Position numbers and translations under genes: made by a program. Positions 996 to 62,600 of a DNA stretch of 64,000 nucleotides are shown here, one piece after another. The notes under the pieces were generated by a model. It searched no databases. It saw only the letters and a program-made list of their open reading frames with translations, and had not been told where the DNA came from. This DNA comes from Mytilus galloprovincialis (Eukaryota > Mollusca > Bivalvia > Mytilida > Mytilidae), in NCBI RefSeq assembly GCF_965363235.1, contig NC_134850.1:41660602-41724601 (forward strand). The letters are read 5' to 3'. The first letter of the stretch is position 1. Each line of letters starts with the position of its first letter.

Positions 996-1264
996 TTAAG
1001 GTGGTACCCAACACTTTCACTAAAATTAATTTGGCTCGTTTAATTTTCATAAAATTTTGTCAAAATAAATGAACAAAAATATAAAAAATTAAAAAATTTT
1101 GAACCAACCGTTTTGTCAGAAAAATTACACTGGTTATATAGCAATTTGACAACCACCAATTTTGATCATTGAGAAGCTTAATATTCCTTTTATAACACAA
1201 TGTAATTAAAACGTTTAGCCGACTTTACAGAGTTATCTCCCTGTAGTGTTAGGTACCACCTTAA
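996..1264. mobile_element. MITE, TTAAGGTGGTACC family, copy 1
   Basis: Terminal inverted repeats TTAAGGTGGTACC (996-1008) and GGTACCACCTTAA (1252-1264). A related copy with the same ends and internal text (TCATTGAGAAGCTTAATATT) is at 22710-22989. The outer TTAA may be the target duplication. Confidence 0.75.
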
Positions 1265-1293
1265 ACAAACCTTATTCTTTATCTTGCGAGGTT

Positions 1294-1299
1294 TTTATT
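1294..1299 (-). promoter_or_regulatory. Candidate poly(A) signal of the giant gene
   Basis: AATAAA on the minus strand, about 165 bases past the stop at 1465. It is the first canonical hexamer I see downstream of the stop. Function is inferred from position only. Confidence 0.45.
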
Positions 1300-1464
1300 A
1301 ATGCGAATAATGCCAATGGGTGAGTATCGCAATAATATGAACTCGCAATCTGATATTTGATAAATTTATCTGTATGCAGGTTTTTCTGAAACCACAATAA
1401 TTAATCTCACATTTTGGTTCATTCTTTTTTTTTTCAAATTTCCCTTAAGAATTTTTTTTTTTCA

Positions 1465-2675
1465 TTATCTGCCTTTAAATTCACCATCACATATCTTTCT
1501 TTTTTTTAAGGCTTTCTTAAAAATCTTAGAATAATTACCCCAGACATAGCCAACCAATGATATAGTTCTTGTCATTCTCTCAAGCGTAACAATCAGCTCT
1601 CCTTTACATGCATCTATCTGAACACTGGCCTCAATACTTCTACCTAATTCTGTTTCCTCAAAACAACATGTAAACTTTTCACAGGTGTTATCAATGTTAC
1701 ATGAAACTGTATTAGCGAGTGCTGGCAAGCTACTTGTAGGAACAATAGAACAAGCTAAAAAATAAAAGTTATATATAAAATGTGCTGCCTTCATAATTGG
1801 CAAGTGATTTTTTGTAAATTCAAGACATTACAATTAAAGGAATAACGCAATCAGTTTTATGTAAATGTTTTACTACAATTTAATTTTTATTGAGTATAAG
1901 ATGTTACATGTACATCAAATTAAAGATTAACATAAAGGTTCAAAGAAAATTTGCTTTCATAAATAGTTGCTTTCCTCCATGACTTTTTGTCGATGATGGA
2001 TGGTAGTCTTATTGGCAGTCATACCACATCTCCTTATTTTTAAATTGCTGATTAAGCAGCCTGATATCTAAAAGAAAATTTGTGAACAATGACAAATTCA
2101 TTTTTTAATATTGCAACTGTATAGATATTGCAAAGTCCATATTTCAATGCATTATGATCCTCAAAATTATTTGCAGCTAAATGAAATAGCAAAAGAATTT
2201 ATTGTTTCATTGAAATATGGCCTTTTTGTTTAGGATTGTAGATACAAGGTGTCTACTTGATTCAAGTTGTCTAACCCTTTTGTAGATAAGACAAGGTCCA
2301 TGTTTTGCTATTGGAAGGCAAAATATCATTTCTATCAGAAAGAAAAATAAAGATGAACAATGCCATTAGATGCTTAAGATTCAGCAAAAGTTTCATTTAA
2401 ATCAAGTCTAGTGAATAACATAGTTGAAAAATCAACTTATCACTCTGTCTTACGAGACAAGAGGTCAGCATATTATTCCACCACCCTATAAATTTGTTTT
2501 CACTAACCTGTGGTCCATCCATTGGTGCCAGAAGAATACAAGTTACCGCTTCGATCACATGGTGTGGCTAATAGGTAAAACGATACAAAGGCTTCATCCA
2601 AAAACCGAGAGGCATCATAGCTTTTCAAGTTTCCGGAGATTTTATTATCAGCCTTAAACTGGGTTAAAGAAAGGT
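1465..2675 (-). CDS. Giant gene terminal unit 20: E1 2508-2675, E2 plus tail and stop 1465-1754
   Basis: E1 has LSLTQFKADNK, TPCDRSG and NGWTT. E2 has CNIDNTCEKFTCC, IDAC, and YVWG, where other units splice. Here the frame reads on for 19 residues (ALKKRKICDGEF ...) to a stop. No E3- or E4-like exon is found to the left. The basic tail holds one cysteine and faintly resembles the E4 LPKKxCDW region, so it might replace Cys10 (inference). A GTAATT after YVWG could be a weak donor, so alternative splicing cannot be excluded. Confidence 0.75.
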
Positions 2676-8600: not shown

Positions 8601-11600
8601 TTTTTGTTATTCAGCAAAGCATTGGTTAACTGTTTATTTTCCCTCTAAATTACATTCAAAATATGACACACTTACTTGAGACGGACAATTCCTTGTAAAT
8701 TGTAGTAATGATCCTCCCCTGCAAATAGAAAAAAAAGTTAATCTGACAGTGTCCAGAAATTTTCAAAAAATTCTATGGGATATTTACATTAGTAAAAAAG
8801 ACAATTTCATAATCTTATACATATTTTGAATTATCTACTATTTCAAATGTAACTTACAATATTCCAATGTAACTTACCATATTTAAATGTAACTTACCAT
8901 ATTCAAATGTAACTTACCATATTCAACAAGAATGTGTCCCCAGTACACGAATCCCCACTCGCACTATCATTTTCTATGTTCAGTGGACCGTGAAATTGGG
9001 GTAAACCCCCTAATTTGGCATTAAAATTAAAAAGATCATATCATAGGGAACATGTATACTAAGTTTGAAGTCGATTGGACTTCAACTTCATCAAAAACTA
9101 CCTTGACCAAAAACTTTAACCTGAAGCGGGACAGACGGACGGACGAACAAACGGACGGACGGACGGACGAACGAACGGACGCACAGACCAGAAAACATAA
9201 TGCCCCTATCGTAGGTGGGGCATAAAAATAACTTACCATATTCAAATGTAACTTACAATGTTCAAATGTAACTTACCATATACAAATGTAACTTACTATA
9301 TTCAAATGTAACTTACCATATTCAAATGTAACTTTACATATTTCAATGTAACTTACAAATGTGACTTACCATATTCAAATGTAAGTTACCATATTCAAAT
9401 GTAACCTATCATATTCAAATGTAACTTACACTTACAATATTCAAATGAAATTTAAAAATTCCAATGTAACTTACAATATTCCAATGTAACTTACCATATA
9501 CCAATGTAACTTACAAATGTGACTTACCATATTCAAATGTAACTTACCATATTCAAATGTCACTTACCATATTCCAATGTAAAACTAACCATATTCAAAT
9601 GTAACTTACCAAATTCAAAATCACTGAGTGTTCTGTTGTATCTTGCTCTCTCTATACTGATACTGAGCCTGTTTGAACAGGGATCCAGTAGAAGGGAGAA
9701 TTCAATTGACCTCTGAATAAAATCATTCTCTATACATCCTTGCACACCTGTACACATGGTAGTTATGTGGCCACTAACTTTGTCTGATAAAGTTGGTAAT
9801 GTCAGGTTAGCAGCACAATCTGAAAAAAGAAAAGAATGCATAAAAGACCTAATTGCTATTTTGATATCTGCAACACTCCACCGGGGAAAATTGCAACATT
9901 TAAACATTTGATATCATATAACAACAAATTTAGCTAATTAACACATTTAAAATGGTTGGGTATAATTATATGTTTATTGCAACTTTTTAAAACAGTAATA
10001 ACTTATTGCAAAAATAAGACAAAATGGGTTTAGGTTCTACTACAAATCTCCCATTGAAAATTTTTCTGCAGAGGGAGATCTGAAATTTTAAGGTTTCAAC
10101 AGCTGGCAGCTATCAAATAAGATTAGCATTTGTTTTATACCTTGTGTCCATGATCCATTGTTATACAGGGCACCAGTTCGGTTACACATTTCATCCTGCA
10201 TGAATGGTGCCAGGTTTGTATCTTCCATAAACTGTAGTAACAAGTTTGGTGTCAAAGGATCAGAAGGTCCATGGTTTCTGTTTATCAAATATGTGTACAG
10301 CGAAAAACCTGAAATATTAAAAAAAAATGCTTTTCATGCATTATCATAATTCTCTGTATTAATAGTGACATAAACAAAAGCTAAGTTTAGTTTTCTTTTG
10401 AGCATTGCTGTATAAAGATAAAGAGACTAGCCATACATTGTCTTGGATATAAATTGAATTTGTACTTGGTACAAATCTGGAAAGAAAGGCTTGGCAAGCC
10501 TCACATTTCTACCTGTTTCTAAGCCTTAAACACATAAATTTTATATTTTAAGACAATGTATGATAATTCCATATATTTTTTTCATATTTTAAAAAGTAAA
10601 AAAATTAAAGTGAAATAAAACAAAGTACATATTAATTCATCAAATATTTCATAAAATTAATTTTTTTTTATTAATCAATATTCATCTAATCTTGTTGATA
10701 TGCGTAATATAAATACTAACCAGATATATGGAAATCAGAGCTCCAATCACATTGTTTCTTAGATAGAAGGACCTTGTCCATTAGTATGTTGGCTGCTTTA
10801 ACGGGTCCAGCGGATTCATAGGATAATGTCAGATTCATAGAAACTAAGAACTGTCTGGACTCATATAGATTCTCTATTACAAAGCTGTAAAAAAATCAAT
10901 GTTTCCTTGTACTTTACATTGTTTTTGTCTATTGGAACAGTACCATGAAAGAAGTACTTATTCCAAAGAATTTTGTTTTGTCGGGTTGCTTTCTCATAGA
11001 TATTTACCTCACTCATATGGAGTATTTAAAACTGTTAAAAATTCTACTTTAATAAAACATATAAACAAACTATACAGTTATAATAAATTAAGAGGTTATT
11101 GTGGTCATTATAGTTCCCTATCTCTGACCACTAAATGGGAATTTTTATGTGATTACACAAAGGTATTAAGGAAAGTGTAATAAAGCTACAAAAAAATATT
11201 TTTTTGAAATAACATTTAAATCCAAGCATTGCAATCATAACACATAAAGGTCATAATAAAGAAATATAACTTTTTATCCTTTGATTTAAATGATTGGAAT
11301 ACTCACTCCATCGTCAACAAACCAAACAGGTCCATACTTTGTAAAACTCCTGTAAATTGAGGAAGACATTGTTAGTTCGTCTCAGCTATATATGAAAGAA
11401 CTGATATTCACATCAGTAAATATTGGGAATATCAGAAAAAAATTGATTTTTAAATGAATAAAGCTGAAATTACATGTATATTGCAAGAAAAAACAAAGAA
11501 ACGAGAAAGAATAAGTCCATGAACAAAATTTAATTCCACATTATTGAAATCTTAAAATTAATCTTAAATACCCCTAACTAGAACTTACCCCACTGGTAGT

Positions 11601-14600
11601 CATGGAAGGGAACTTTGAACTCCAGTTTTTCAATCCTGACAGACAGTTCAAAGTTACAGGAGTCAATTTCAAGCTCTGTTTCCATTGGTGTACCCAGCAG
11701 ATCAACTTCATGACAACACCTGACAAAGCTACAAGTGGGCGGTATGTAACACTTCAGTGTACTTGATGGTAAGTTCTCCAAGTTAGAAGCTGAGCATTCT
11801 GTAATGAAGATTGTTTATATGTCATTCAATTTTATATATTTAACTTCATGACAACACCTGACAAAGCTACAAGTGGGAGGAATGTAACACTTCATTGTAC
11901 TGGATGGTAAGTTCTCCAAGTTAGAAGCTGAGCATTCTGTAATGAAGATTGTTTATATGTCATTCAATTTTATATATTTAACTTCATGACAACACCTGAC
12001 AAAGCTACAAGTGGGAGGAATGTAACACTTCAGTGTACTGGATGGTAAGTTCTCCAAGTTAGAAGCTGAACATTCTGTAATGAAGATTGTTTATATGTCA
12101 TTCAATTTTATATATTTAACTTCATGACAACACCTGACAAAGCTACAAGTGGGAGGAATGTAACACTTCATTGTACTGGATGGTAAGTTCTCCAAGTTAG
12201 AGGCTGAGCATTCTGTAATGAAGATTGTTTATATGTCATTCAATTTTATATATTTAACTTCATGACAACACCTGACAAAGCTACAAGTGGGAGGTATGTA
12301 ACACTTCAGTGTACTGGATGGTAAGTTCTTCAAGTTAGAAGCTGAGCATTCTGTAATGAAGATTGTTTATATGTCATTCAATTTTATATATTTAACTTCA
12401 TGACAACACCTGACAAAGCTACAAGTGGGAGGAATGTAACACTTCATTGTACTGGATGGTAAGTTCTCCAAGTTAGAAGCTGAACATTCTGTAATGTAGA
12501 TTGTTTATATGTCATTGACTCTTTATTTATATCAAACTTTAACCATTCAAGCCAATCTACTGTTATCAAGCAGAATAGAATTCTCATCAGACAACAATAC
12601 AATCTTTAAGTTGACCTTTTTCTGAGTCGACAGAAATAATGTACAGCTATTCTAAGTACATTTGCAATAAAAAAAACAAAAAAAAACCATCTTTAATAAT
12701 TGCAAACTTTAACATTATTGCTGACATTAATACCTAAAGTCACACGTCTGTCATGTATTGCTGTCGAGACAAAAACACTTACTGTAAACCAACTTATTTT
12801 CGCGGATACTTTATTTCGCGTTTATTCCGTTCTAGCCCAATTCGCGGCGATTTAATTTCGCGATTTTCACATCTTCTTGTCGTAATTAAACAAGGAAAGA
12901 TCCAAGTTTCAAATTTTCGCGATGATTTATATTCGCGTTATTTTTCTTCTCGCGTAAGTCGCGAACATAAATCGCTCGCGAAAATTAGTTGGTTTACAGT
13001 AATTTTATGTGTAAAACCTACCATCCTTCCATCCATTAATAGCTCCTGTGTATGGTGAATTGTATCCCTGACACGGTGTATCTGCCTGGTAAGGTCCCAC
13101 GTATAGAGCCTCTGTCAGTCTGGCTGTGTCTACAGGGAACAGCTGGGCATTAGATGTAATGTTCATGTCATTTCTCCACCCAGACTCAGAGAAATCTGTA
13201 AAAAAAACGTAAAATTTGTTTCCAATTTTTTGGGTCATATTTCTCATTTCAAACATTCACACTAGATTGTTGCATTACCAAATTTTCAAGTTTCCCTCTT
13301 TTTCAAAAATATTATCATATCTTGACATCTACTGTCATACCTGTATATAAAGATCACTATCAGGACCAGAGAAAAATGACCTCAGAAGAGAGATGACCTT
13401 TGAATTAAGGTTCCAAATACAAATGTATTACTACAGCTAGACAATAAGAGGATGACCAGACAAGGCAGGTTTTCACTTACTTTAAATTCAGAAATTATTG
13501 CAAGGTTTTTATAATTGCAAATAATGTGACTGGATGATAACAGCAATATAGAGAACATGCATTCTCTTTTTGATACGTAAATAAGAGTATGCAGATTTGC
13601 CTGAAATCGCAATAATAAATGCACGCAATAATTTCTGATTTTACAGTATTAAAGGTGACCTTTATAGCTAGTTTGACTGTATTTATATCTATTCCTTTTG
13701 ACCAGCATAAAAACTAATTAAAAGTAGGCTGATAGCTTTAAATTTTAAATTATAAAGCTACATGTACATTTCTGTAGCAATATTTTTCAAAATTAAACAC
13801 ATTATTTTGGAACTATTTTTTGGCACTAGATATACCAGAAAATTATACTTATGGGTATTTACAAACTCTAAAAACATTTGTCAAGCCTTTTCCTTTTGTA
13901 AAGCATGCATTAAAAACTTAAATAAAAATTCTTTTTAAGATTGAAAGCAAAGAGTTTTACATTGAATAGACACCTGTCTATTGTTGAAGACTGTATGTTA
14001 ACCTTTTAATATCTTATGGTTTTGAGTGACATTAAGGTGCTGTTTCATTCGTCTAGACCTAATATACTAATAAATTGGCCAAAGACCAATTTCGACAGAC
14101 CCTAGAAGTCATGGTATTGGTTAACATCTTACTTGGATCTCTGAAGCCTGTTTTCCACTGACATGGCTTTTTGATTGGATAAAGTCATCAATTTTCATGG
14201 CATCAATTCACAAATTATGCTATGTAAACATTTGCACAAGGGCAGACAACGTGTGAGAGATTTTTAATGTATGATTTGATGTTGTTTTCTGTCAGTTTCA
14301 TTAGAATGGAGATAACAATATCGTATTTTAAGCTCCCACGGCTTTGATTGGTCATTTGATGGTCGTAAATACCTGTTTACTGGCTCAGCTGAGGTGTGGC
14401 CAGTAATCTTAATTTGCAAGAATCAAATGACCAATTGATGCTGTCTGAGCTCAAAATACAATACAATTATCTCCTTAATATTTCTTTTTGTAAAGCTGCA
14501 TTTTATGTTTTCAGAAATTTTATAAAATTTTAAACATCAAAATAATATTTATACTACGACATTTTGGGTGGAAATGCAAGATGTTGATGTGTTTTTTTTG

Positions 14601-17600
14601 TGTCTTTATTCAAATTTCACATTCATTGACTTATTTTCAACATCTCATTGTATTCATATAAATCAGATAGAGACAATATCTGACAGATCCTAGATGACAG
14701 ATGTTGGTTGATTAATGTCCAGTGGCAGATATTTTATGAATGTTCAGGAAGAGAACCAATCAGATCCTAGAAATCTGAGTAATATTAACTTACTTGGATC
14801 TCTGAAGCCTGTCTTCCACTGACAAGGCTTTTTATGCAGAACAGAACTATGGAAAATCATTGATTCTAATTCACATGGTGCAGATGACTCGTAGCAGATA
14901 CTGATATTCATGTCAACAAGGTATTGGTAGTCGTTGGTCAGATCATATATCACATAACTGAAAAAAAGATTAAAAATACACATAATCTCATTGTAAAATA
15001 TACATTTTTAATATCTTTACAAGAAAATTTGATAATACATGTAGTAAACAATCAATAAATAAATCTAAAAAAAAATTATTATTAAATTTTATACCCAATA
15101 AGAGATTTGATTTCAAAAATTACTTCTTTTACTAGTAACAGTTTTCTGTATTTTATAATAAACTTTTGCAAAAATCTGTTTATTTTTTAATAAAGGTCAG
15201 TCACTTTTGTTATAAAAAAATATTATTTTAATTTTAGATACTCACTCTACTCTAACAACATTTTCCATGTAAAACTGCTGTAAACTTCCTGTAATGGGTA
15301 AAAACATTATATTAGACTTTATGCATTGTTTACATAAGATAAATGAATTTTTACATTTTTTTTAACTGGAAACCCTTCAATTGTCTCCTTGCATTGTAGT
15401 AAAATATTTTAAAATTGAATAATATAATTTTCTAAAATCACTTTTCAACCCATTTTTTGAAGCTTATTGGTTTATTATCCAATTTACTCATGTCTACAAT
15501 TTGCATGCATAACAATTTTTTAATTCAAAGTAAAGCAAACAATAATATATCTTACTAATATTACAAATATTAATTTCTTTTATTTACATAAATTTACAGA
15601 TTGAGGTACAGTCGATTCCACTTAATTGCATACCGCTTAATAGCATAATTCGGTTAATTGCATACTTTTCTCCTGCACAAAACCATTTCCCATTCATCTA
15701 ATGTTAAATTGTACGGTTATATGCATAGCCCCACAAGTGGCATTTCGGTTAATTGCATAGAAAATAATTGCCAGCTAGATATGCTTAGTTAAAACTGACG
15801 AGATTTTTGACCGGAAACAGCAATTTGTAAGTATATTTTTCTTGAATGCATCATAATTTTTGATATTATTTCACATTTACTTATGTGTTATTTGAATAAA
15901 GTTTTAAAACAGTTTCTTTCGTGTTTATATGATTATAAAAAAGCCTCGATGTGTACACAGGTAAAGTTTCCCATATTCTATTTTAAGCCTCGAGGTCATA
16001 AAAATGTCAATCAGCTGATTGTTGTAAAAACACAATCATTCTATGATCTTCTATCTCAAAAGGTGTTAATTATTGATTGCATTTCAAACATTGTTCATAG
16101 ATTACATTTTGGGTGTATTTTAAAAACATTAACGCCTGCTAATTATCGATCATTATCCAATGTGCAATCTCGAAATTTGTCATGGGGTGATCTACATTTA
16201 TGTTAAATATTACAGGGCATTTATATATGGTTGAAGAATTTCATACATCAATCTTTCACTTTTAATATTTTTTGAAAAGAACATTAACTAAAAATTATTA
16301 TATTTTCTCACTTTCAACACTCGTGTACAGCAAATAACCCGTGTAGGGCCCCATTACCTGCTGCTTTGCATATATACGAAACTAACGAGGTTAAAGTAAC
16401 AGTGTTACATCACTGTGCAATCAGTAAATACTGCATATTAAAGGCAGTTCATTACACATTTATTGTATCAAATGATTATAAACTGTGTAACATTGTTCAA
16501 CAGTTTTTTTTAATCAAAGCGTAACAATATAATTTGTACATCCGGGTCATAGAAACAAATCTATTTTTAGAACAATTTTATTTTCGTATCTCAGGTAAAG
16601 GAAAAGTCGGTACATAAATTAAACTAAAACTAAATGTGTTCATAAACTTTATTGAAAGAATAAACAATGAAATAAAATGCATGACACTAGACAAATAACT
16701 TTTATTAGAATAAATAATCATTCATGTTGTAAGTGGATTATGGACGTTCATCTTTCTTCAGGATTTCCTTTACTGATCTGCACTATCGATGTTATTTAAA
16801 TTGTCTCCGTATTTTGGCATTTCGGATATAAGCATACTCCGCTTTATTGCATATTTTCATCTGACAAATAGGCTATGCAAATAACCGGAATGTACTGTAC
16901 TACATTACATATAATTTCATTTTCATTTTGGTTCTTTTTTCTCAATATTAATGCAAAAACTGACTTACCAAAACTGAAGTCAAACAAACTTCTGTTGTAC
17001 TCCAGATAATCAATAGTTAGAGACAAACTTTGGTCACATGGGTTTAATAGAAGGTGTACATCAATGTTACGGTTCAGTTCCTCTGTGTACACACAACACT
17101 TGACATCAGTACAACTACTGGTAACTTGGCAGGTTACATTGTCATGGAGCATTGGCTTGTTGACAGTCAATGGGCAACCTGTAATTATATTTTCAAAACA
17201 GTGTTAATTTTATCTACCATTATTTAGAAGTCAGCAATGCAGTACTGTACAGTTGAGCATAACACAGAAAGTAACTGTTATAAAGTATAGCTTTCATAAA
17301 ACTACTTAACATAAAACAATTTAAAGTAATAACAATTTTTTGAACAGCTTATCATCAATATAGAGGTATTTCCCCTTTTGGGTATTCAGCTGAATTGTCA
17401 TGTATGACCCTAGACCTGTGTCGGAATAACCTTCAGATTTCATGCAACAATCACTTTTTCATTTTGACATCAAATATTTTGGATTGTGATGAAATATTTT
17501 CAGGGGAAGTTTCAATTTCTATGTCATTTGGACACTTTTGGAAAGTTGTCTCATTGGCAATCATACCACATCTTCTTATTTTTATATTGTGTGGTTTTAA

Positions 17601-20600
17601 TAATGGCAGAAAAATTTGCATACAAGAGTAAATGTGCCTATTGAAAATAAGGACCTTGTAGCATTATTTTTTATTCTGAATCCCAGCACAATTATTTTGG
17701 TTCAATAATGTATGCAAAAATTGTATAAATCTATTTAAATTATATCAATGCTAATGAGTCAGCAAAAACTACTGGTTTGTTAACAGCTAGTATCAAATAC
17801 ATGGAGCATAAACACAATAAAACATCATTGAATCAAAATTTAAAATTGAAGTTCTTCATCCTAAGGTTACTTACCTCCTGATTGCCATCCTGGTGATGCA
17901 ATGGTACACTGTGGTTCCTTCATATACTTGGCTATTTTCAGATCACTCATGAGGAGAGAAGCAGCATACTCTGGTAGAGAGTTTGATGAACTTAATCCTT
18001 TATTAGCCTTCCAGTCTAACAGTGAAAATCCTGGAAATATAATTTTCATATGAATTAAAGAAGATTTAGTCACTTATTGTGATGGGCATCATCAGAGAGC
18101 AGCCTTCAAAATAGAGCAAAACTCTCACCTTATTACAAGCTCCTAAAGTTAATGATTTATTTTATGTATTTGAAGGCCATTGGATAAATTAAATATCTTC
18201 TAATTCAAAAAATGAAATAACCCTCTAAAATTTAACATCAATAAATTAATCTTACCTGGAATAACAAACTTGCCAGTAAATTAAAAATTGTACATGTTAA
18301 TAATTGCTTCCTATGTTAATAATGAACTACTTAAAAAAATATTCTCTTTAATCTAGCTTATTAACTGGAATGGCAAATTACCCAGTAGATGTACATGTAG
18401 GTTTGTCTATCTTGAGACTACTAGCTACTACTCTCTGTACAGTACAATCAGCATTGGCCTCTAAACATACACTCAGTGTTACTGTCAACAAGTAGGAACA
18501 AGACTATATATTATTATATTACCTGGAATAGCAAACTGTCCAGTAGATGTACATGTAGGTTTGTCTATCTTGAGACTACTAGCTACTACTCTCTGTACAG
18601 TACAATCAGCATTAGCCTCTAAACATACACTCAGTGTTACTGTCAACAAGTAGGAACACAACTATAGATTATTATATTACCTGGAATGGCAAACTGGCCA
18701 GTAGATGTACATGTAGGTTTGTCTATCTTGAGACTACTAGCTACTACTCTCTGTACAGTACAATCAGCATTAGCCTCTAAACATACACTCAGTGTTACTG
18801 ACAACAAGTAGGAACCATCTATTGGTAATTCCTCTATCTGATAGCTGAAATGTACACAATACAATAATGTATCCTCACTTCATTAAAATTCTGCATTTTT
18901 TTCCAATTTTGCTTGAACAGTCCTGTGAATACTTTAAGAAAACCTGAAATTTACTGATATTACTTGGAAAGTGTTATTTTGACATTGTAAAGGAAACTTG
19001 TATATCATTACCTAAATAAAGTCTAAAAGGGACTAATACTCTCTTTTCCTTTCAATGAACGTTGTTGAATTTTATAATAGAATGAAATTCAAAGACTTTA
19101 TTTCATCATTCTATTACTATTTGTGCCTTTTTTTGCAAAGTTTGCTATAGTTGAATCCTTTTTTGCAAATTTTAATATGATATAATTTTAAAATGATATT
19201 TTTACAAAAAGTAATGCTTACTCCATTTTGAAGACACCATTTATGTAAAACTTATCTTGTGTACCTAAAATATATCAAGAAACATCATTTATATATACAG
19301 GATATATCATTTGTTTACATAACTTAAAACATCAACTGCAATTATAAAAAGAATAATAGCATAGTTGATAAAAAAAAAATGATCTCTAAATATAGCTTGT
19401 TTGACAAAGATTGAATGAATGGAAAGTTTTATAATAATAAACACTACAAATTCTGCATTCTTTATTTTAACAGGCACTTTTTGATAATTTTATTTTATAA
19501 TTATCCATTAATTCTGTTATAAACCAAAATACTTTTAAACATTTGAACTCACCAAACTTGTAAGTCAAGAGATTCTGTTCATATTCCAGACCTTCAATGG
19601 CGACAGTCAATTTGTATTTACAAGCATCAACAGATATTTTGTACAAGAATGACCTTCCAATGACAGAGGCATCTACACAACACTGGAACCCTGTACAATC
19701 TGGTAACGTATAACAGGTTGTCTCTGTTGGTTTAATATATTCCAGTGTCAAGGACTGGGTAGTACAACCTATAAACAAAATAAAGCAGAATTTACAATCC
19801 ACAGTCTCACTGTATACATTTTCTGTTTCAGAATTCAATGAATTATGGGTAATTCTACGTTCATACCCAAAATATATTAGTTTCTGAAAATGGTAAATTG
19901 AATATTAAACTTATTATCTCCCTTTTTTCTCATTTTCATATTGATTATATATTTTTTTCTTTTTTTCTTTAACTATTTTAAGCCTATATTCATCTTTGCC
20001 ATATTAAAGAACAAACAGGAAAACATAGAAAGGTTCTTTTATTTTACCTACATGTATTAAAAATAAATTGCATAAAGAAATATTTTCTACTTGCCTTAAT
20101 ATTTGATGAAATTATATTGCCCTTACCTTTCATCCATCCATCGTAAGTCGTACCAAATGGTGAAGTCAATCTGTTACATGACTGCTCCAGTAGATATTGT
20201 GAGACACTGGCTGTATTCAAAACCTGCTGTACAAAGTACCTAGGAAGTGTGGTCACTCCGACTAGATGGTAAGTCTGTCTCATTGCCTCCAAGGAGAATC
20301 CTAAAATAGTAACCATGGAATTTACTGCATACAAAAAGCTTATTTTATACTTCATTACAGAATGACATTAGTTAATTACTTCCAGGATCCTTGTTCTCTA
20401 CCAATAATAAAGGGCTGTGAAGTGTGCAACATGATACCACAACAACATGTCAACCAGGAACCAAAAACCATGTGATCATAAAAATATGGAGTATGATTAT
20501 CGTATTAATTAGAATTCACCCATTAAAAATATTGAATTTGGTGTTCCAAGCACAAATGTTGTACTCTGATTACTGAGTAAAGTTTTATGACCGTAAGCTT

Positions 20601-50600: not shown

Positions 50601-53600
50601 TCAGTCTTATACTGAGTCAGTGAAAAGTCTGAAAAGAAAATGGAATTCTATTTAAAAGTCAATTAAAGAAACTGTCACCAGGCTTATATTAAGGCCAAAT
50701 AAAAATATATGTGTGGTTCCAGTTACATACTTTTAAAAAATAGGGTCGGTAGGTCAGCAATATTTTTTTTTTTTTTTTTTTTTTTTTTAATGTCAAAATC
50801 CGGAAAAGAATCGTGTGTTTACCGAAATTGTTTCCCTTATTATACACACCCCAACCGGAAGTCCAACATTTTTACATGTGTGTGGTTGTAAAATAAACAG
50901 CCATGATACGTTTTTAGTTAATTTTGTTGCATTCTGTTATGAATTCTTGCATTTTAGCCATAACAGATACTTGTGATGGAAATTCAGATGACAGAAATCT
51001 ATGAATTTAATTATTTTAATTCACAATCCTCAAAATTTGATCGTTTGAAAATTTATTTTTAAGAAATGAAAAAAAAGTTCTAGGGTCGGGGGGTTTTAAC
51101 TAGGGTCGGTCGGGTTCTGGAACCACACATATATTTTTATTTGGCCTAATTATACCTGTGTTTTCAGTTATCTAATACTCAACTTTTTCTCCTTTTCTCC
51201 CTTGTCCTTTAATATTATTTCTGCAACCACATTTTTAGGCCAATGAGCTTCCATTATTTGATTAAGTAAATTATTTCAAAATGCAAAGTGTGGTCCCATT
51301 TCTTTGATGGGAAATTTTGTGTTAAAAACATTAGTGATGAACAGACAGATATCAATTACTTATACCTTTTTTGTCAGTCTCATTGAATCCATTTCAGCTG
51401 ATAGGAGGAATTTATGAGACTGACATAAAGACTTTTCATTCTCTTTTCTTTCCTAACAATATTCTGAATACCTACCATTTTGTAGGAACTTTTTGTCCCA
51501 GTCACACACTTTCTTTGGTAGTCTGACTTTATCAAAGATATTGTAAACAGTTCCACATGGCTGGTTAGCTTCCCAACATAAACTCAGCTTCATAGAAATC
51601 AGGAATGCAGGCTCAGCATACAAGTCATGGAGAACAAAACTGGAAAAATAATTCATCTATTTATAAAACAAAGCCTGAAAGTAATGCCTTCCAAAAAGCC
51701 ATCTTCATAGATCCAAATAGATAGAAACAAAACAAAAGATTTGGTTGCGTATTATACACAATTTTTTCACCCAAGACATATAGTTGATAGAGGAGATGCA
51801 TATTATACACAACTGTAGACGTTTTTTTTTTGTTTTTTTTTCATTTTTTTTTTTTTATATAAATGATTACAAGTGGGTCTCATTGGGGTCTAAGCGTGAC
51901 ACGGGATTGCCGATTTTTTGTAAGCGTGACACCTGAAAGTCAAATTATTGTGCCGTGAAAACAGGAAATGAAGTCTAACGGGACACGGGAAATTACAAAA
52001 AAATGAGATTTGCTTATGTACATAGTATAAGCGGAATACAGGAATCTGACAAAACAGTAAGCGGGATCCGGGATCAGAACCCCCCAATGAGACCCCCTTA
52101 CAATGGCTTATCAATTTTACATGCAATGAAAAAAACAAACAAAGGAAGCTTGTACCATGTTAAAGCAACATAATTATCACATTCTAAATCTTTCATGTAT
52201 AATTGTCATAGTTTGATGGATATTACTGTGGAACCATTATCATCCATCAGGTACTAATTGTCATGGTTAATATTTACCACAAACTAAAGGGGTCAACAAA
52301 GTACTAATTTTTATCGTTTGTAATTTTTCCTCAAACCACTAAATATAATTCATTGTTTTAAATTGCCTCAGTTAAACAAATCCTTAAAATGAATGGTATA
52401 TAACTTTAAAAATTATAAAATCACCTCATTTTAAAAATTCCATTTAGATCAACATCTGTCCATTCTCCCCATTGATATCCTTTGAGTGTTCTTTGGTATT
52501 GCTGACGTTCAATTCCAACTTTCAACATGTAGTCGCACTGCTCTAGTCTCATATAGAATTCAAATGTTTTACCGATGAAGGGTACGTCTAATGCACAACT
52601 CAATCCCCGACAGGTGCTCTCTAGATTACAGGATATTACAGACTGGTCCATTTGAAGGAGAGTTACAGGGGCCTCAGTACACTCTGAAAGGTAATTTTGT
52701 ATGTTAACATTGATAGATAGGTGATTGGATGTGAAATATCACATGTCCTTATTTCTAAATAAAGGCATCAGTAGATATAACAACCTCTCACTGTAGTCTC
52801 TTTTTGGATCAGGTTTTTTTTTCAATTATTCTCATGATATATTATTCACTCACTTTCCAAACCTAACAATCAGGTCTGTTTTTTTTTTTCTTTTTCTTCT
52901 TTTAACTAACTCCAATAATCCACCAAATCAATGCACTTAGGATACGAAGACACATTTTGCAGACTCTTATTAATTCTGTGATATATAAAATTCTAGTAGG
53001 TTGTCCTATAATCTTCTTACAGCCCAAACCCACAAGGATACACAATATCCCTTTATTTTTCCTCTAATATTCCTCTTAAACACTTCCCAATTAGTGTAGT
53101 TCTTAACATCACCAACTTAGTCAGTCTAATTTTTTTTAAAGTGGTACAATTTTTTTTTAAACACATACCTGAACTCCAACCAAGATAGGCTGCTGCATAT
53201 GTACCAAAGGGGTCATCTCTAGATACCATAGGACTGAGTAAATATTCTCCTATCTGTGATGCCTCCATTAAGGAAGACACCGCAGAGGAATCCAAGTTAG
53301 ACCCTGGTGTCAAAGAATTGTCCAAATACCACTGATTAAGAGACCAACCTGAAAGATGAAGATACATTTGTATTAAATCTTCTTCTGCAATGTCCTTGAA
53401 ATACTTTTTCTGATATTATAAATACTATCGATCTCACAAACATGTTTAACACCGCCGCATTTTTGCGCCTGTCCCAAGTCAGGAGCCTCTGGCCTTTGTT
53501 AGTCTTGTATTATTTTAATTTTAGTTTCTTGTGTACAATTTGGAAATTAGTATGGCGTTCATTATCACTGAACTAGTATATATTTGTTTAGGGGCCAGTT

Positions 53601-56600
53601 GAAGGACGCCTCCGGGTGCGGGAATTTCTCGCTACATTTATGACCTGTTAGTGACCTTCTGCTGTTGTTTTTTTCTATGGTCGGGTTGTTGTCTCTTTGG
53701 CACATTCCCCATTTCCATTCTCAATTTTATTATCAAGCTATTGTCACTACTCTAAATGATCAATCTTTAAAAGATGAATTTATAATGCAATACAATAATT
53801 GTTGCATACTTGGATTTGGATATCCTCTAAACCATGGACACACCATCTTTGGTAATTTGGTATTCAGTACTATTGTATCTTGCAAGTCACATGGTGTAGG
53901 GTCATTGAAGCAAATCTTAACTTTCATATCCACAAGGTAGACCATTTCACCAACCAAATCTGTTATTTTGTACCTGTTAAGAAATTAATAGAGAACATCA
54001 AGTCTTTTTCTAGTGTTTCGTATTCATATTTGTTTTTATCAGCCATTATTTTCTATTCTGTCCCATCTAGACCCTGTTATTTTGTTTTCATGTAGCATAG
54101 AAGAAAAAGATTTTTTTATTGCATCATGTACATAAAATCCAAACTTTAGAAATATGAAATAATAACACAAAGCAAAAAAAGAAATGACATATACATGAAT
54201 ATTATTTAAATTTGATTTTTGATTTTTGGTGTTTTAATGCCACTTTTAAGCACTGCTTTTGGGCTATTTCGTAGCAGCCAGTTTTTATTGGTGGAGGAAG
54301 CCGGAGTGTCTGGAGAAAACCACCGACCTTCGATAGGAAATATTATTTAAAGATTTAAAATATGCAAACAAATATAATTATAAACCTATATCAAAGTTGA
54401 AAAATATGCGAAGAAGTCTTATAAAATGTTCAAAACAATACATTTCAATTGAAAGAGTGTAGAAATCCTTGATAACTTATTCTATTTAAGCTTCATATTA
54501 CTATCAATCAGCCCGGGGGGGGTTACTGACTATCCTTTCGGGTATAACTGTGCCGACAGCACTTGCCAAATCATACCCTGTTCTAACCAGAAAACATTGA
54601 AAAACATACCCTGTTCTAAACAGAAATATTGAAAAACATACCCTGTTCTAGACGCGTTCAGAAAATGTATACCCTGTTCTAGACACGCTCAGAAAATGTA
54701 TACCTTGTTTGAGACAGAGACCTGTATCTTAAACAGTTAAATAAGCGATCCTGTTCTAGACAAATACTTTGTTTAAAAAAAGACCCTGTTCTCACCAGCA
54801 GGGCATGAAAAAGCGACCCTGTTCTAACCAGCAGGACATGAAAAAGGGACCCTGTTTTAACCAGCAGGGCATGAAAAAGCGACCCTGTTTTGCGGCACAC
54901 TTGTACCACTAAAAATATAGGAAGTAACTATTATCATTCATATTCAGACACTATCAAAGGTCAAAAATTAAAAGGCCGATGATTTCCTGTGAATTTGATT
55001 TAAACAAGACTAAACCTGGAAATGAGTCCGGAATTGCTTGTTTTAGAATTTTGCAAAACATCCGGTTTCAATTTTTGTCTTCAAAATCGAAAGAAACGCA
55101 AGACATGTCTGAGAAATTTATCGTTTTGAGTCATTAAAATCATTCATTTTTAAATTTGCCTTCCCTTAATTGCTCTTGAACGATTTTCGGAAAATGGTAG
55201 GAAAATTCATGAAGTAAATGCAATGCAAGCAACAGTAAAACAAGTTCATTGAGGCTAGAGTATGATTACTCAGTATTACAGTAATGTGATTTTGACAATC
55301 TTTTTTTGAAAAAGGGCACCAACTTTTAAGTTATCTCAAAATGACCAAATTAGGTGAAAAAAAATCCGGTTCCTTGGTCTCTTACATATCTAAATAAATT
55401 GGAAACTTTGTGACCCTAAAACCAAAGGTTATCATAATTTCATTTATTTCAAATGAAAATCTCTTAAGATAACAAGTCTTCACAAAAATAAACAACTCAT
55501 ATTTAACTATTATATTTTTTTAGATACTTGAACATCAAAACATATTATAATCTAAAATAAATTTTACATACAAAAAAATATATTTGACTTTGCCATAACT
55601 GAAAGAAAGAGCAAATGTACTCACTCAATTTCAATAACTCTGTCAATATGGAAATACTGTGTCGTCTCAAATGTAAAGGTGTAAAGTGAAAAGTCAAACT
55701 GGTACTTTTCTATACCAATGTCAAGTTTCTGTGTACAGGGATCCAGTTTGAGGAAGACATTGAAGTTTCTATCAACAGTAGTAGAATGTAGACAACATGA
55801 TATACCAGTGCAGGTATCATATAAGTGACAAACACTATTACTTCCTAGAGTTGGTAGATCTACTGCTGATGTACAACCTGAAATATAAAAATGTAAATAG
55901 TTTGAAATAGCTGTGAAAATTAGCTAATGGTGAGTTGCAAAACCTTACATGTTTGTTTTTTTTAAACAAATATTACTATTTTAGCCTATGCTGGGCCATT
56001 TTCTGATCACTTCTTTTTTTATTTTTCATGCGACACCCAAATTTTGGCATACTATAATATTTTGTTTTTTTGACTTTCTTTGTAAGTTCTATTGAATAAT
56101 TCAGAATAGTCTCTATATTCAAAGCAATGTTTGCAAAAGCTTAACCTAGACAGATTTTATTACATTAAAAGTATTCCGCACTGCAAAACTACCACAAAAT
56201 TTTAATGACGGTAGACATTAATTTTTTTTATTGTCTTGTGTTTTGCAGTTTATGTGAGCTGCAAATGGATAATTATAATTCTAAAAACTTTAAAAGTGTC
56301 TAGTTTAGTCTTTGGTACTTCATAATGCAAGAAATATGTTTTGTTGACCTACATAATTAAACTCTTTTCAGTTTACTTTAATTACCTGCGTCTTTTGTCC
56401 AGCCGTTAGTTGGGGACGCATAAAGTGGATCTGACATTTGACACTGATCAGCTGTTGTTTTCAGTAAACTGGCTACTCCCAGGTATTCCAAGAGTTGTGA
56501 GGATACTAATGAGTTCAGTGGTGTACTTGTGGAATATCCTTGTCCAGTCAGGTAGGAATTCAAATTGAACCCTTAAAACAAATCAAATGCATATGTTTGA

Positions 56601-59600
56601 TGTTAACCATTTTAAAAATTAGAGGTAAAAATATTTAACTTAAATTTCCATTAATGACAACTTAAAACTGAGGTTTAGTTGTTAATTGCACTTTTCATGA
56701 GGGATATGGAACAGTGATAATGCACTTTTTTCTGGCTTTCAAGTATTGAGTTGTCAAAAAGGTACATTATATCAAAATTCTTGCATTATTTTAATGAATA
56801 TTAAAAGTCAGTTTCCTTTACATATTTAAGCTTGAATTCAGTTTTAAAAAAGCAAGTCACAAATGAACATGTAATGTGTTAAGTGTAATTTTCTCCACAT
56901 CATTCTACAGACAAGACAAGACAAATTAAGAAATAATTCCTTCATGTTATGCTCTATGCTCATTTTAACATGGGTAGGCATTATATTTGTCGATATTTTA
57001 GACTGAGCGTTAGCGAGGTGTAAAATGTGGTCAAATATAATGCCTACCCATGTTAAAATGAGCATAGAGTATGACATGAAGAAATTATTTCGATTCTAAT
57101 AGGACAAATACAGTATTTTTATGGGTCGAAGCGTACGAAATTACCGTAAAAATGTTTGGCTGTTCCCGTTTCCTCCTCGAGGAGTCTGTGCATTGCATTT
57201 CATATTTAATAAGTTTTAAAACTACGAGCAGGATAAATATATGTTGTTTCATAAAAATATATTATAAAAGTTTATGTTAGCTGCCTAAATGTATATATTT
57301 TAAAGGATAACGATGGAAATAACGTTAATTTAAACAGTAAGTTTGTGCGCATGTGTCAAACATATTTTGTGCTCATTAGAACACGGCTTTGTTTACAAAG
57401 CGTAATAAGGACGTCATATTAGAATACTTTATTAAAGTCTCACCACTTGTTACATATAAAATATACAGCTTTTTAAAACACAAGTTAACAACAAGAGCCA
57501 CTCTATAAAGAGTTATGAGAGACTATAAAACAATTTTTCTTACTACAAATACAAGTCAACTATCATGATTATAAAATACATTTTTGCTTATTAAAATTTC
57601 ACAGCAGATTTTGGCAGCATAAAATACCATATTTTCATTTGTAAAAAGAAATATAAATTTTTCATTATCAGACATATGTAAAAATTTCTCATCAACAATA
57701 CTAGCATGGTTAAAAATAACATTACGAATATCTGAATATACAGACCTGGAATAACATATCCTCCAGTCCAGTCACATGGTTGTTTAGGAATCTTTACACC
57801 ATCAAATACAGTGTAAGAATAACGACAATCTCCAACAGTTTCAAAACATATACTGATCGTCATGTACAACAAGTAAACTTTCTCGGCTGTCAACTCCTCT
57901 GCTTTGTACCTAGAATATAAAATGATATAATATGAATGATGTACAAAATAATAAAAAAATGTTTTCTTAAAGGACATGACTGTTCAAAAGTGAAAAGCTG
58001 AAATGATTCTATCAATTTTTTGGTATCTTGTGAAATAAAAATTTTCCAAGAGCTGTTCAGATAATTGGTAGTTGAAATCACAAACTGTTAACACAGATAT
58101 GTCTCACATGGGACACATGCTATCAATGCCAAAAACAGTATGCTAGACAGCTTTATTCAGAAGACTTTATGTTGATAGCACCTGATAAAGCCTTTGTACA
58201 AATGCCAATGAACATTCAATTATTTTACATTTATCTTGTGACACTCACAAAAAAACTTGCACACAAAAACTTGTCTAACTTTATACAAATCAATGTCTCT
58301 CTGGTGCTAAAAGATGAGGTATAGTTTCCATCTGCAAAAACAAATCCATTCAAAAAACAAGTTTTGTTTAAATTGTCTACAATTCCCGACTGAATAAAAT
58401 ACTTGTTTTTTATTAAGTATATCATTAATAAAAAACTTACTGTAGTCTGAGCAGATTGCCTAAAGTGACCGTCTGCCAACTGCCTTGTGTAAATTCCAGT
58501 AATGTAACATTGAAATTTCTTTTCTCCAGTCCAATACTAACAGAGTAACTACAGGGATCCACCAAGACAAAGGCTTCCAACTTTCTCCCAAGATAACCAA
58601 TGTTAGAACAGCACTGAGCACCAGTACAGTAACTTGGTAACCTGCACCGTGTGTAGGCTGGTAACTGTGGTAGTGTTATAAGTTCTCCACAAGCTGTAAA
58701 GTAATTTGTTGAAAATGTACTTACAAATTAATATGTTGAATTGATAATTAACATCATGTGGCAAATAGTACATGATGCAAGACCCATATAAATGTGATAT
58801 GAATAGGAACCCTTCTTTGAACTAGATTGAAATGCTGAGACAAATTTTTAAAGTGCTAGTTCACAAGGTAACTGGTCGCAGGCATGCCCATCATCCTACC
58901 TGGACACATTATTATGACTCCAAGTAGACCAATCTTTGCTTCAATATATACATGCTGTTACAAGCATTTGGATATTTCTTTGAGTTTTACTCCAAACTTT
59001 ATTTTATTACTCTTGAGTAAAGTATGCATTAGATTTGTTATTTTTTTTAATATTAACATGAAGTCTGTCAATTCATTTATTGTTTTCAAACATGTGGTCT
59101 CTTATTACTGCAACTGCTGCTTTTCAAGTCTTCAATGTTTTAGACAAAAGATAATTCATTTGTGGCTGAAATTATTTCTTGTTGCCTATTTCTAAACTCC
59201 ATGCTTAGATTTAGCAAGAGTTTACTTTTGTGATGGTAAAACTTTACCTGTTGAATCCCATCCATTGGATAGAGCTCCAGAATAGCTTGACAATTCACAC
59301 TGAGGATCTTTTTGGAAACCTGCTATTCCTAATTCCTCCATCAGTAAGTCAACGGCCCAACTTGGTAACTGATTGACATTTGTGTTAACCTCTAACTCAC
59401 TCATGTAAGACACCAATGAGAAATCTGTAAAGTTCATTAGTAAATCAGTATAAGTACTACAATTAAGATTTAGGTATAAGCATATAAAAATTCAAATGTG
59501 TTTGAAGGCTGTCAACATTTACCAACAGAAAAATAATTGAAATTATTTCAAGGTCTCCAGCTTCTTGAACGAAGTAGCCTTATAAAAATTAAAAAGAAAT

Positions 59601-62600
59601 AAGAAATTAATTACTTTTTGTAAAGTACAAAACAGTTAGAATCATTAAAAATTCTCCTAAGTTCTCCCTATTCAATATTTCTAAATTATGGCTATTCCAG
59701 GAAAAAATGTATGAGAAGGTTGGACAACACTTTTATTATACTCCACCATCCATAATTTTGTAACAGAATTGTATTAATGCGACCATTCCTATCACCACCA
59801 GATATATCATGTGGTGTCCAAACCTGCCATATATTTTTTTCCTGGAAAAGCCTTAAGCCCAAACCTTGAAAGTTTATTTTCAATTTTTGTTTACCTAAAT
59901 CACAATTTTTTTTAAGTTCTTACCAGGAACGGCATATGGCTGGCTGTAGTTACATGAAGATTTGGGTAACTTTACATCAGTCAATACTGTGTGCTGTACT
60001 GCACATGGCCCAGCAGCAGAATAGCAGACTTCAATGTCCATATTAACTACAAACACTCTCTCACTCTGGTAGTTCACTATTTTGTATCTGTAGAACAGGG
60101 GAAAAAAAAGACTTGAAAACTGCTGGATTTTGGAAGGAAGGAGGGAAAATTAGACATGGTAACAATATATATGATTGATTGAATGGACATTTAAAAATAA
60201 CATGTTTTTGTCTTTTCAGATTTATTTCAAATTCAGTCAATATCCCTTTCAGTCAGTATGCATGGATAAATTTTTTGCCTTTTTAATAGAAATATGAGCT
60301 ATCAAAATTAATTAAGTTGTAGCTAACTAAAAATTTAATTCCACTGTGTCTATAAAGTGGGGATGGTAGTAACATTTCATTATCAATTAATAATACCCCC
60401 AAAAAATATAAAATGACAGATTTACAAATAAACATTTTTAAGACGATGAAATGAAATCTCAAATTCAATGTAAATATAGTTCTTACTTAATATTAACAAG
60501 CCCTCCGAAGGAGAAAGTATCTTCCTGTGCATACTGGAAACTATACAGAGATATAGTTCTGTTGAAATTCTCTATACCAACTGTGAACTCCCTACTACAC
60601 ACATCAAGGTCAGCATAAACTCTGAAGGTCGTATCTAACTTGGCAATTTCAACACAGCAGTCAATTTTAGTACAGCTGTCACCAAGGTTACATACAATAC
60701 CAGAACCAGGCAATGTAGTGAGTGTTGGTGCATTCTGACATCCTGTCCAAAATATATATATATATATAGTTAAAGAAAGTAGATATAATGACATTCTTGT
60801 AGACCAAACCAGGTTAATAATTTTTCAAACTATCTACAGTGGATTCCTTATTATTTGTTGGATACCAATATTCATGGATTTCATAGTTACAGGGGAACCA
60901 CAAATTACAAATTTTCTTAATGAATTTATGCAGACTTTGGCCAAACAATGTAATCAAATTTCCACAAAATGCATATTTTCCTTAATCCACGAAAATTGGT
61001 ACAAACGAAAATAAATGAATCCACAGTAAACAACAAGTAAATCTAAACACAAAAAAAATCAAAAAAAATAATTATAACCATCTTCTCATGAAATACCATC
61101 AAGTATTTTTACATGTTTACTGATGTAGGTAGAATTGTGAACAAGCAATGCATGCACTACTAATTTAACAACATTTTGTCCACCATTTTTTATTTAGAAA
61201 GTGAGTGTGTTGGTATATTTCTCACCTGAACTATTAGTCCAGTTTTCAAAGTTGACTGGTTTATAAGGTGCAGAAGATGCCACACACTGGCTAGGTTGTA
61301 CATGTATATTTCTCACCTGAACTAATAGCCCAGCCTTCAGAGTTGAGGGGTGTATATGGTGCAGAAGATGCCACACAGTGGTTAGGCTGTATATAATATT
61401 ACCTGAACTAATAGCCCACCCTTCAGAGTTGACGGGTGTATAAGGTACAAAAGATGCCACACAGTGGTTAGGCTGTATATAATATTACCTGAACTAATAG
61501 CCCAGCCTTCAGAGTTGACGGGTGTATAAGGTGCAGAAGATGCCACACAGTGGCTCGGCTGTAGATAATCTTCAAACTGTAAGAATCTTTCAAGTTCAAT
61601 GACGACAAGTTCTGACAAAGGATTTGAGTCTGTATAACTGTTACTTGATAGCCAGGTTGTCAAGTCAAAACCTAAAATAATGAAAATCATAGTCAGATTT
61701 CTTAAAAAGAAGAATGTGTCTAAAAATTAAACATGAAACTTGGAAAATTTAAGGGAAAAAAAATTCAGTTCTTTCTGTTTGGCAAAAAATGATTCTGTAT
61801 TAGAATTCTATTTTAAACTCCACATATGTTTACTTCAAATGTTTATATATACAAATGTTATTCTTCAAGTAATGCTGGTACTACTCATAAATAATGATCA
61901 TACTTCAGTTAAAAGATAATGGACATATAAACTTAAAGAAATCTGTATATAATATCCATCATGGTTGAAAATTTTAAATTAAAAAAAAAAGTTATAATGC
62001 AGAAGTAAAGATTTATAACAAAACTTTGACTTTTCTTACTTGGATTGCCAGAGAATGCAAATCTATTGTTCCAATTACAGGACTTCTTTGGTAGTTTGAC
62101 ATTATCTAATACTGTATGTTTAACATCACAACTGTCTCTGTCTGAAGTCTCCATACACAGACCCATGTCAACAGATACCAGGTACATTCCTTCGCTGGTT
62201 AAATCATGGATCACATAGCTGGAAAAAAGTTTGAAAAAAGGAATATTAGGACGGTCAAAAAAAAAAAAAAATAGAACTGTAGCACAAAAGACTCTACAGT
62301 TAGTTTAGACAGGTTAAAAATAACAAAGTATACAATCAGTAGCAAGTTTTTGATTTTGTTGATTTCATATTACTTTTGGTAGATTATAAAATCCTCATAA
62401 AGTATATAAACACAGATATATGTCTCGCCTTTTAAAACCTTATCACTAGATACAACATTTGTATGTGCCACCAATTCTGCTGAGGACCAAAAATAACACT
62501 AAAAAGTTTTGATTTCACAACTATTGTCACAGGTGACACAAAAAATATTCCAAACAAACAAATTTTCTAATAGCATTTCTTAAAATGTATTCTTCTACAG

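Follow-up and report, generated by a model that had tools for sequence, protein, structure and literature searches.

The question raised by this locus is why so many tandem arrays within a single gene should lie at the edges of its exons. The window (the whole 64-kb stretch of Mytilus galloprovincialis DNA that was analysed) lies entirely inside one minus-strand gene, for which 69 exons were predicted with an 11.7-kb CDS and no stops in the spliced frame; neither the start nor the end of the gene was identified within these 64 kb. The gene is built from repeated four-exon units, with exon types distinguished by peptide as E2 (DLxxExxYLVxM), E3 (FSLxxW), E4 (CTxVxCC) and the small exon E1, which is fused to E4 in units U1–U9 and U11 (matched by position, E4, E2 and E1 of the original prediction correspond to E2, E4 and E3 here). 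The E4-E1 intron, present in some units and missing from others, showed no link to any array, and an account in terms of its gain or loss was set aside, with 14 of the 16 inner branches of the unit tree unresolved. The least certain edge of the model is the E4 acceptor of U20, placed at 1754 (1784 in the first model). Searches with pieces of the repeat protein gave no Pfam match above cut-off (with E values up to 1 allowed, AFF4_CHD alone appeared, at 0.081 and below its cut-off), and a PDB sequence search with the repeat protein gave one match at E 0.37. The structure predicted by AlphaFold for the fused E4-E1 exon (mean pLDDT 82, pTM 0.65) matched no PDB structure with E ≤ 0.001. When one 52-residue exon peptide was used to scan viral contigs, 14 stretches fitted its pattern but none was confirmed as a relative.

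Nine tandem arrays adjoining real exons of the predicted model were identified using Tandem Repeats Finder (TRF), and their periods of 20–158 bp and 2–28 copies agreed with the original prediction (Table 1). Each array contained exactly one splice edge, so that the arrays straddle splice sites as proposed, and this edge was closer than one period to the array end facing the exon, which places the extra copies in the intron. About ten tandemly copied edges had been expected, nine of which were recovered by TRF; the tenth, the E2 donor of U16 (an E4 donor of unit 15 in the earlier labels), instead has a non-tandem copy at a donor-to-donor distance of ~660 bp. For the U7 E3 donor edge, a candidate copy in a decayed state had an alignment score of 32, compared to a control maximum of 22. 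Seven array edges are donors and two are acceptors, and no preference for donors is claimed from this difference (p = 0.18).

Table 1. Host gene, edge arrays and further edge copies in the window
Feature	Position	Strand	Unit and copies	Remarks
Host gene	718..63221	(-)	~20 copies of four-exon unit E2-E3-E4-E1	69 predicted exons
Array A, E4 donor of U17 (exon 9610-9819)	8842..9619	(-)	20-bp unit GTAAGTTACATTTGAATATG (coding strand), ~25 copies	interrupted by inserted element, ~8927-9228
Array B, E4 acceptor of U16 (exon 11589-11798)	11704..12516	(-)	138 bp x 5.9	unit of ~91-95 bp exon + up to 47 bp intron
Array C, E2 donor of U15 (exon 18681-18844)	18359..18815	(-)	158 bp x 2.9	~15 intron bp/unit
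Array D, E4 donor of U13 (exon 22426-22638)	22338..22495	(-)	81 bp x 2.0	~7-8 intron bp/unit
Array E, E2 donor of U13 (exon 23766-23929)	23696..23823	(-)	67 bp x 1.9	~13-16 intron bp/unit
Array H, E4 acceptor of U11 (fused E4-E1 exon 30847-31105)	31039..31517	(-)	80 bp x 6.0	~12-13 intron bp/unit
Array I, E4 donor of U10 (exon 33604-33813)	33478..33717	(-)	120 bp x 2.0	~6-7 intron bp/unit
Array K, E2 donor of U8 (exon 45192-45355)	43029..45269	(-)	80 bp x 28	only 2-3 intron bp/unit
Array N, E3 donor of U2 (exon 61489-61671)	61224..61569	(-)	86 bp x 4.0	~3-6 intron bp/unit
U16 E2 donor edge, dispersed non-tandem copy	14096..14172	(-)		source 14761-14833; 40 exon + ~33 intron bp
U7 E3 donor edge (exon 47792-47968), candidate decayed copy	47674..47723	(-)		downstream, own intron

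Periods and breakpoints differed among all nine arrays, and unit junctions, as read by eye, carried altered or filler bases or short matches (e.g. CAG in array E). These differences support the reading of the edge arrays as apparently independent, recurrent tandem duplications of exon-intron edges, each with its own origin as originally proposed. The accompanying claim that the repeats are unrelated in sequence was borne out for most of them; however, 5 of 36 pairs of array units scored so high that at most 2 of 100 shuffles reached the same score, and four of these five pairs involved ends of the same exon type. Neighbouring copies were 94–97% identical without gaps in seven of the eight arrays measured, whereas the eighth, array N, had an ungapped adjacent-copy identity of 0.70 with TRF matches of 88%, which we put down to indels. 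Array A, which lay outside this measurement, had diverged further, with TRF matches of 77% in one part and 92% in the other. Since the paralogous four-exon units have a median end branch of 1.28 changes/site, arrays with 94–97% copy identity are far younger than the units that carry them. Array K had 11 variable positions among 27 copies, 6 of which were common to several copies in mixed combinations, the pattern expected from exchange; high copy identity could also come from recent amplification alone.

Placement was analysed for 19 arrays with a period ≥ 20 bp, for which TRF rows were merged by hand and GGAC tracts and shorter periods were omitted. Ten of these arrays were intron-only, comprising five with 161–169-bp units that look to be carried by mobile elements and five plain arrays; mobile-element-like status was assigned by judgement, and 14 of the 19 arrays were not so attributed. 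Lowering the TRF cut-off to 36 gained only rows with periods below 20 bp. At periods ≥ 40 bp, one plain intron array compared with eight edge arrays, or six with eight when mobile-element-like arrays were counted. Thus, the expected rarity of plain intron repeats held when mobile-element-like arrays were set aside but not for the arrays overall, more than half of which were confined to introns. The mobile-element-like intron arrays were absent from the original prediction, as were the mainly exonic units described below and the amphioxus precedent. In a self-comparison of the window (E ≤ 1e-3, leaving out low-complexity rows and array-to-array pairs), edge arrays had no dispersed relatives other than matches to their flanks and, for array A, to its inserted element; origin of the edge arrays from a mobile element or satellite class was therefore unsupported within the 64 kb.

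Enrichment was tested by comparing a single unit of each array with random placement. With mobile-element-like arrays set aside, the unit straddled a splice edge in 9 of 14 arrays, against an expectation of 2.0 (p = 1e-5); for the full set of 19, the count of 9 compared with an expectation of 3.7 (p = 0.004); other choices of dropped arrays gave p = 4e-6 to 3e-3. Matching placements for GC content raised the expectations to 2.66 (p = 1e-4) and 4.56 (p = 0.016), respectively, which argues against base composition as the whole cause. By contrast, overlap of whole arrays with splice sites, the comparison with random placement put forward in the original prediction, showed no excess (9/19 vs 9.6 expected, p = 0.72; 9/14 vs 6.5 expected, p = 0.10) and was significant only for the nine plain arrays with periods ≥ 40 bp (p = 0.018). 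We consider the unit the fairer test because whole arrays grew from one unit. A TRF-free test, with arrays and mobile-element regions removed from its intron control, found strong local duplications at 8 of 136 edges relative to 4 of 766 downstream intron segments (p = 6e-5; upstream segments, 4/747) or 3 of 383 non-overlapping intron equivalents (p = 1.5e-3); neither array A nor the dispersed copy from U16 is among these eight edges at the threshold used. The score of an edge against its own intron exceeded that against all mismatched introns for 8 of the 68 donors. Among the 68 acceptors this held for 4, of which two led by 1–3 points only and one was possibly tied or outside the top rows. 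Exon-internal duplication was seen at none of 299 tested positions.

Most edge-array units consisted mainly of exon. All seven donor-array units included only ~2–16 intron bases, and the intron part was below the median of a uniform null in eight of nine units, that of array A being equal to it. Combined across arrays, the shortness of the intron parts gave p = 0.003 (Fisher) or 1e-4 (sum of uniforms), and p = 0.08–0.12 when the intron estimates were doubled.

Donor GT was present in 27 of 27 copies of array K examined and acceptor AG in six of six copies of both B and H, while array C had lost GT at its last donor. In five of the seven donor arrays, splicing at the last donor would bring stop codons into the message (in array A, the last donor of four further copies was followed), and read-through to it would be in frame and open only for D, with 81 bp added, and I, with 120 bp added. 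The last donor of array N scored higher than the first (11.9 vs 7.2) and those of D and I scored the same as the first; both are points against masking by use of the first donor. In array A, the donor hexamer differed less than the rest of the unit when gaps were counted (5.3% vs 14.6%, p = 0.004) but not for substitutions alone (8/150 vs 21/343), and extra conservation of this donor was accordingly rejected. The arrays lengthen introns that were already present.

The edge arrays are likely to be mirage-type minisatellites, that is, duplicated edges masked by splicing whose copy number has been altered by exchange. Each would begin with tandem duplication of a short segment that spans a single splice site, with a portion of the exon on one side and a small amount of intron on the other. 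The initial lesion would probably be slippage, or staggered breaks repaired by end-joining that uses little or no microhomology. The duplicate would survive because one complete junction stays on the exon body and everything beyond it, extra copies included, is removed as intron. Duplication of a donor would lengthen the downstream intron and require use of the first donor, and duplication of an acceptor would lengthen the upstream intron and require use of the last acceptor; we infer both this choice of copy and the near-neutrality of the arrays. From two copies on, unequal exchange and conversion would shift the copy number, here from 2 to 28.

Splice masking of neutral, evenly distributed duplications predicts mostly intron-only arrays, which were in the minority at periods ≥ 40 bp, and intron parts of any length, whereas those observed were short. 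Masking alone is thus insufficient given the few plain intron arrays and the short intron parts, and a bias toward exon DNA seems to be needed. A possible addition, compatible with masking although we hold it only tentatively, is a hotspot, with the exon DNA of this gene especially prone to short tandem duplication; most events would fall within exons and be purged, and the survivors would be those with the far breakpoint just past a splice site. Chromatin, base composition or co-transcriptional nicking of exons might lie behind the lesion. The short intron parts, the edge enrichment that survives GC matching and the excess of local duplications at edges over intron segments are all consistent with such a hotspot. 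However, it was formulated post hoc from nine arrays in one gene, the evidence from intron parts weakens with doubled estimates, and no candidate lesion or exon-internal event was found; as purging also predicts a complete lack of exon-internal events, this last result gives the hotspot no support. A broader version, which we think rather unlikely, holds that exon DNA here, and perhaps genome-wide, duplicates in tandem far more often than introns do, breakpoints becoming scarce within ~15 bp of the edge and mirages being the survivors of a much larger, purged flow.

Other explanations are less favoured. The window has 138 splice edges, so that arrays might overlap some of them by chance, and whole-array overlap indeed showed no excess; coincidence of this kind is nevertheless improbable given one-unit placement with and without GC matching. 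Selection for exon inclusion or variant proteins could instead have made the extra splice sites functional, cf. the human IFI6 minisatellite (IFI6/G1P3), whose downstream repeats, reportedly described by Turri et al. in 1995, are said to act as alternative donors. Intact GT and AG in K, B and H, the open reading through D and I and the hexamer of array A when gaps are counted would fit this, but young or homogenised copies keep GT without selection, the hexamer is ordinary for substitutions alone, and the stops beyond most last donors together with the lost GT of array C make function a poor prospect. That the arrays are assembly artefacts is the most improbable of these explanations, as the copies of K vary in mixed patterns, junctions carry altered or filler bases, and nine arrays have nine structures; the assembled copy number, notably the 28 of K, may be wrong.

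Masked edge duplication remains the preferred explanation, and nine mirages in one gene provide a set of breakpoints for comparison, of a kind not met in the literature consulted. These breakpoints suggest that the units are made mostly of exon, an outcome that masking by splicing would not by itself predict. If the pattern were genome-wide, it would point to a mutational bias linked to exon edges and to a source of material from which introns could grow and new ones might perhaps arise; if exon-directed duplication were true, mirage counts would become a gauge of exon-directed mutation.

The class itself is known, and what is new is the density of arrays in one gene, the exon-heavy units and, probably, the bivalve lineage, as no mollusc or bivalve mirage was among the matches listed in a search of open-licence literature (weak evidence of absence). 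In human segmental duplications (PMC2812944), internal tandem repeats at exon-intron boundaries vary among paralogs and transcripts show changed splicing, whereas the mussel arrays are known from sequence. The IFI6/G1P3 minisatellite gives multiple splice donors (cited in PMC4526556), which form a tandem series like that of array A. In potato, RdRp gained an intron when a segment spanning an intron-exon boundary was duplicated in tandem (PMC4974935); the likeness lies in duplication across an acceptor edge, but the potato event created a new intron with a recruited cryptic donor, while the mussel arrays lengthen existing introns. The closest parallel is with amphioxus, where mirages, minisatellite-like duplications of intron-exon boundaries in Adh3 and the globins BflGb6 and BflGb9, were reported from a few genes with an unclear mechanism, unstable copy number and, as suggested by RT-PCR, undisturbed splicing (PMC3087553). 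Splicing and instability were tested in amphioxus, while the bivalve arrays have been read from the genome sequence. All nine mussel arrays have a tandem unit across an exon-intron boundary of a predicted exon, and splice signals stand in many copies (all those examined in K, B and H), just as amphioxus mirages have tandem units across a 5' or 3' exon boundary and several copies with splice signals, and unit sizes are similar (10–160 bp in amphioxus vs 20–158 bp here). Unlike the cephalochordate globin genes, for each of which one array is named, the bivalve gene described here carries nine.

In the predicted exon model, which was assembled from translated self-comparison, splice-site scoring and profile searches over candidate exons, the window sits within a single minus-strand gene of 69 exons with consistent phases (E2, 2 to 1; E3 and E4, 1 to 1; E1, 1 to 2). 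Its spliced predicted exons total 11.7 kb with no stop codons, and GC content is 40% in exons and 30% in introns. Searches of the protein found no Pfam family above the cut-off and no convincing match among solved structures. E4 and E1 are fused in ten of the repeated four-exon units (U1-U20); the intron between them is in U10 and U12-U20 and missing from U1-U9 and U11 and must thus have been gained or lost within the gene, between which the unit tree did not resolve.

Tandem repeats were collected with TRF, whose 44 rows were hand-merged to 19 arrays with a period of at least 20 bp, GGAC tracts excluded. A splice edge lay inside nine of these (seven donors, two acceptors), and the intron-only arrays comprised five with 161–169-bp units and five plain ones. 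Two of the five 161–169-bp arrays belong to a dispersed family, one copy of which also interrupts edge array A, and GGAC-type tracts adjoin four (both family members and two others); the fifth crosses the window end without such a tract on its readable side, so its mobile-element status is the weakest. The original prediction of ten tandemly copied splice edges held for nine, recovered as TRF arrays, but not for the U16 E2 donor, whose copy (40 exon and ~33 intron bases) lies some 660 bp downstream. A decayed candidate copy was also seen downstream of the U7 E3 donor.

Table. Edge arrays, with intron bases per repeat unit estimated by eye from junction alignments, and other intron features of the host gene.
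Feature	Position	Description
Array A (U17 E4 donor)		10 of 20
Array B (U16 E4 acceptor)		up to 47 of 138
Array C (U15 E2 donor)		~15 of 158
Array D (U13 E4 donor)		7-8 of 81
Array E (U13 E2 donor)		13-16 of 67
Array H (U11 E4 acceptor)		12-13 of 80
Array I (U10 E4 donor)		6-7 of 120
Array K (U8 E2 donor)		2-3 of 80
Array N (U2 E3 donor)		3-6 of 86
E4-E1 intron (example)	33603-33259	
Dispersed family	5444-5933, 8925-9231, 34857-35353	169-bp monomers, GGAC-type tails
C1q-domain open frame	25570-26001 (+)	Pfam E 2e-12
26-bp inverted repeat	12779-12804 / 12977-13002	96%; flanks ~220 bp
Similar intron stretches	41459-41659 / 56924-57123	77% direct, 73% inverted

Whether arrays overlap splice edges beyond chance depended on what was placed at random, and all enrichment statistics come from one gene, with p values that are post hoc because the hypothesis was drawn from the same sequence. 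Whole arrays showed no excess over random placement among all 19 (9 seen vs 9.6 expected); among 14 of them the figures were 9 vs 6.5 (p = 0.10). Because arrays grow after their origin, one repeat unit is the fairer object to place, and on this basis 3.7 were expected among all 19 (9/19 seen, p = 0.004), 2.0 among the 14 left when the five mobile-element-like arrays were dropped (9/14 seen, p = 1e-5) and 1.8 among those of the 14 with periods of at least 40 bp (8/9 seen, p = 1e-5). Barring exon-internal placements altered this little, GC-matched placement gave p = 0.016 (all 19) and 1e-4 (14 arrays), and other choices of dropped arrays gave p from 4e-6 to 3e-3. In a TRF-free test, 70-base segments were scored for a strong local duplicate (score at least 60) within 600 bases; one was found at 6/68 donors and 2/68 acceptors, vs 4/766 overlapping intron segments when searched downstream and 4/747 when searched upstream, arrays and mobile-element regions having been removed (p = 6e-5 against the 766; 1.5e-3 against 3/383 non-overlapping equivalents).

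In each edge array, the true exon copy is the end adjoining the exon body, so the remaining copies fall in the intron. Junction alignments showed units that are mainly exon, except in A (half). The intron parts were shorter than at random edge-straddling positions (Fisher's combined p = 0.0026, GC-matched 0.0018, taking 3 for N and upper estimates for the other eight; sum-of-uniforms p = 1.2e-4), a point that is suggestive only, since p climbs to 0.08-0.12 when all estimates are doubled. Little beyond the GT is intronic in K and N, where the donor bases after GT appear to come from exon.

A short duplication extending beyond the splice site would leave one complete junction with the exon body, and surplus copies would be removed together with the intron. 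Duplications lying wholly inside an exon would alter the protein and mostly be lost; a test of 299 exon positions detected none. The initial lesion, splice choice and neutrality are what we infer here. Splice masking alone fails to predict exon-rich units and the scarcity of plain intron arrays. Use of the last donor would introduce stop codons in 5/7 donor arrays (in A, the last of the four further copies followed), and read-through would stay open in D (+27 residues) and I (+40 residues). Among the donor arrays other than A, splice-site scores favoured the first donor over the final one in C, E and K, were equal in D and I, and favoured the final donor in N.

Adjacent copies were 94-97% identical in 7/8 arrays measured, with A more diverged (TRF matches 77% and 92%). 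Array K has 11 variable positions; the variants at six of them recur in more than one copy and are combined differently from copy to copy, a pattern expected from unequal exchange or conversion. Median end branches among the paralogous units were 1.28 changes per site and, judged from sequence divergence, the units are far older than the high-identity arrays.

The introns hold other features besides. The C1q frame, on the strand opposite to the host gene, may be an intronless nested gene; this frame and the GGAC-tailed dispersed repeats point to a bivalve as the probable source of the DNA. The sequence flanked by the 26-bp repeats looks like a small inverted-repeat element. The two similar intron stretches, alike in both orientations, are thus dispersed repeats, each of them partly palindromic.

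Minisatellite-like duplications of intron-exon boundaries are called mirages in amphioxus, and none from a mollusc, bivalve or mussel was among the matches listed in our literature searches. The IFI6 minisatellite, cited in PMC4526556, is reportedly a related case. Others are a potato RdRp intron (PMC4974935), human repeats at exon-intron boundaries (PMC2812944) and a Cryptococcus gene with introns gained through repeat expansion (PMC2395259); a review also derives short tandem duplications in rice from asymmetrical nicks (PMC7407515). In the amphioxus report, the intron 3' end and exon 5' part are duplicated in BflGb6 (150-160 bp units), with a 157-bp unit in BflGb9 and earlier-described duplications of 10-72 bp in Adh3; RT-PCR suggested regular splicing, copy number was unstable and the mechanism was called unclear (PMC3087553). 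The edge arrays in our predicted exon model share this structure, and nine of them in one gene are a dense new instance of an already known structure.
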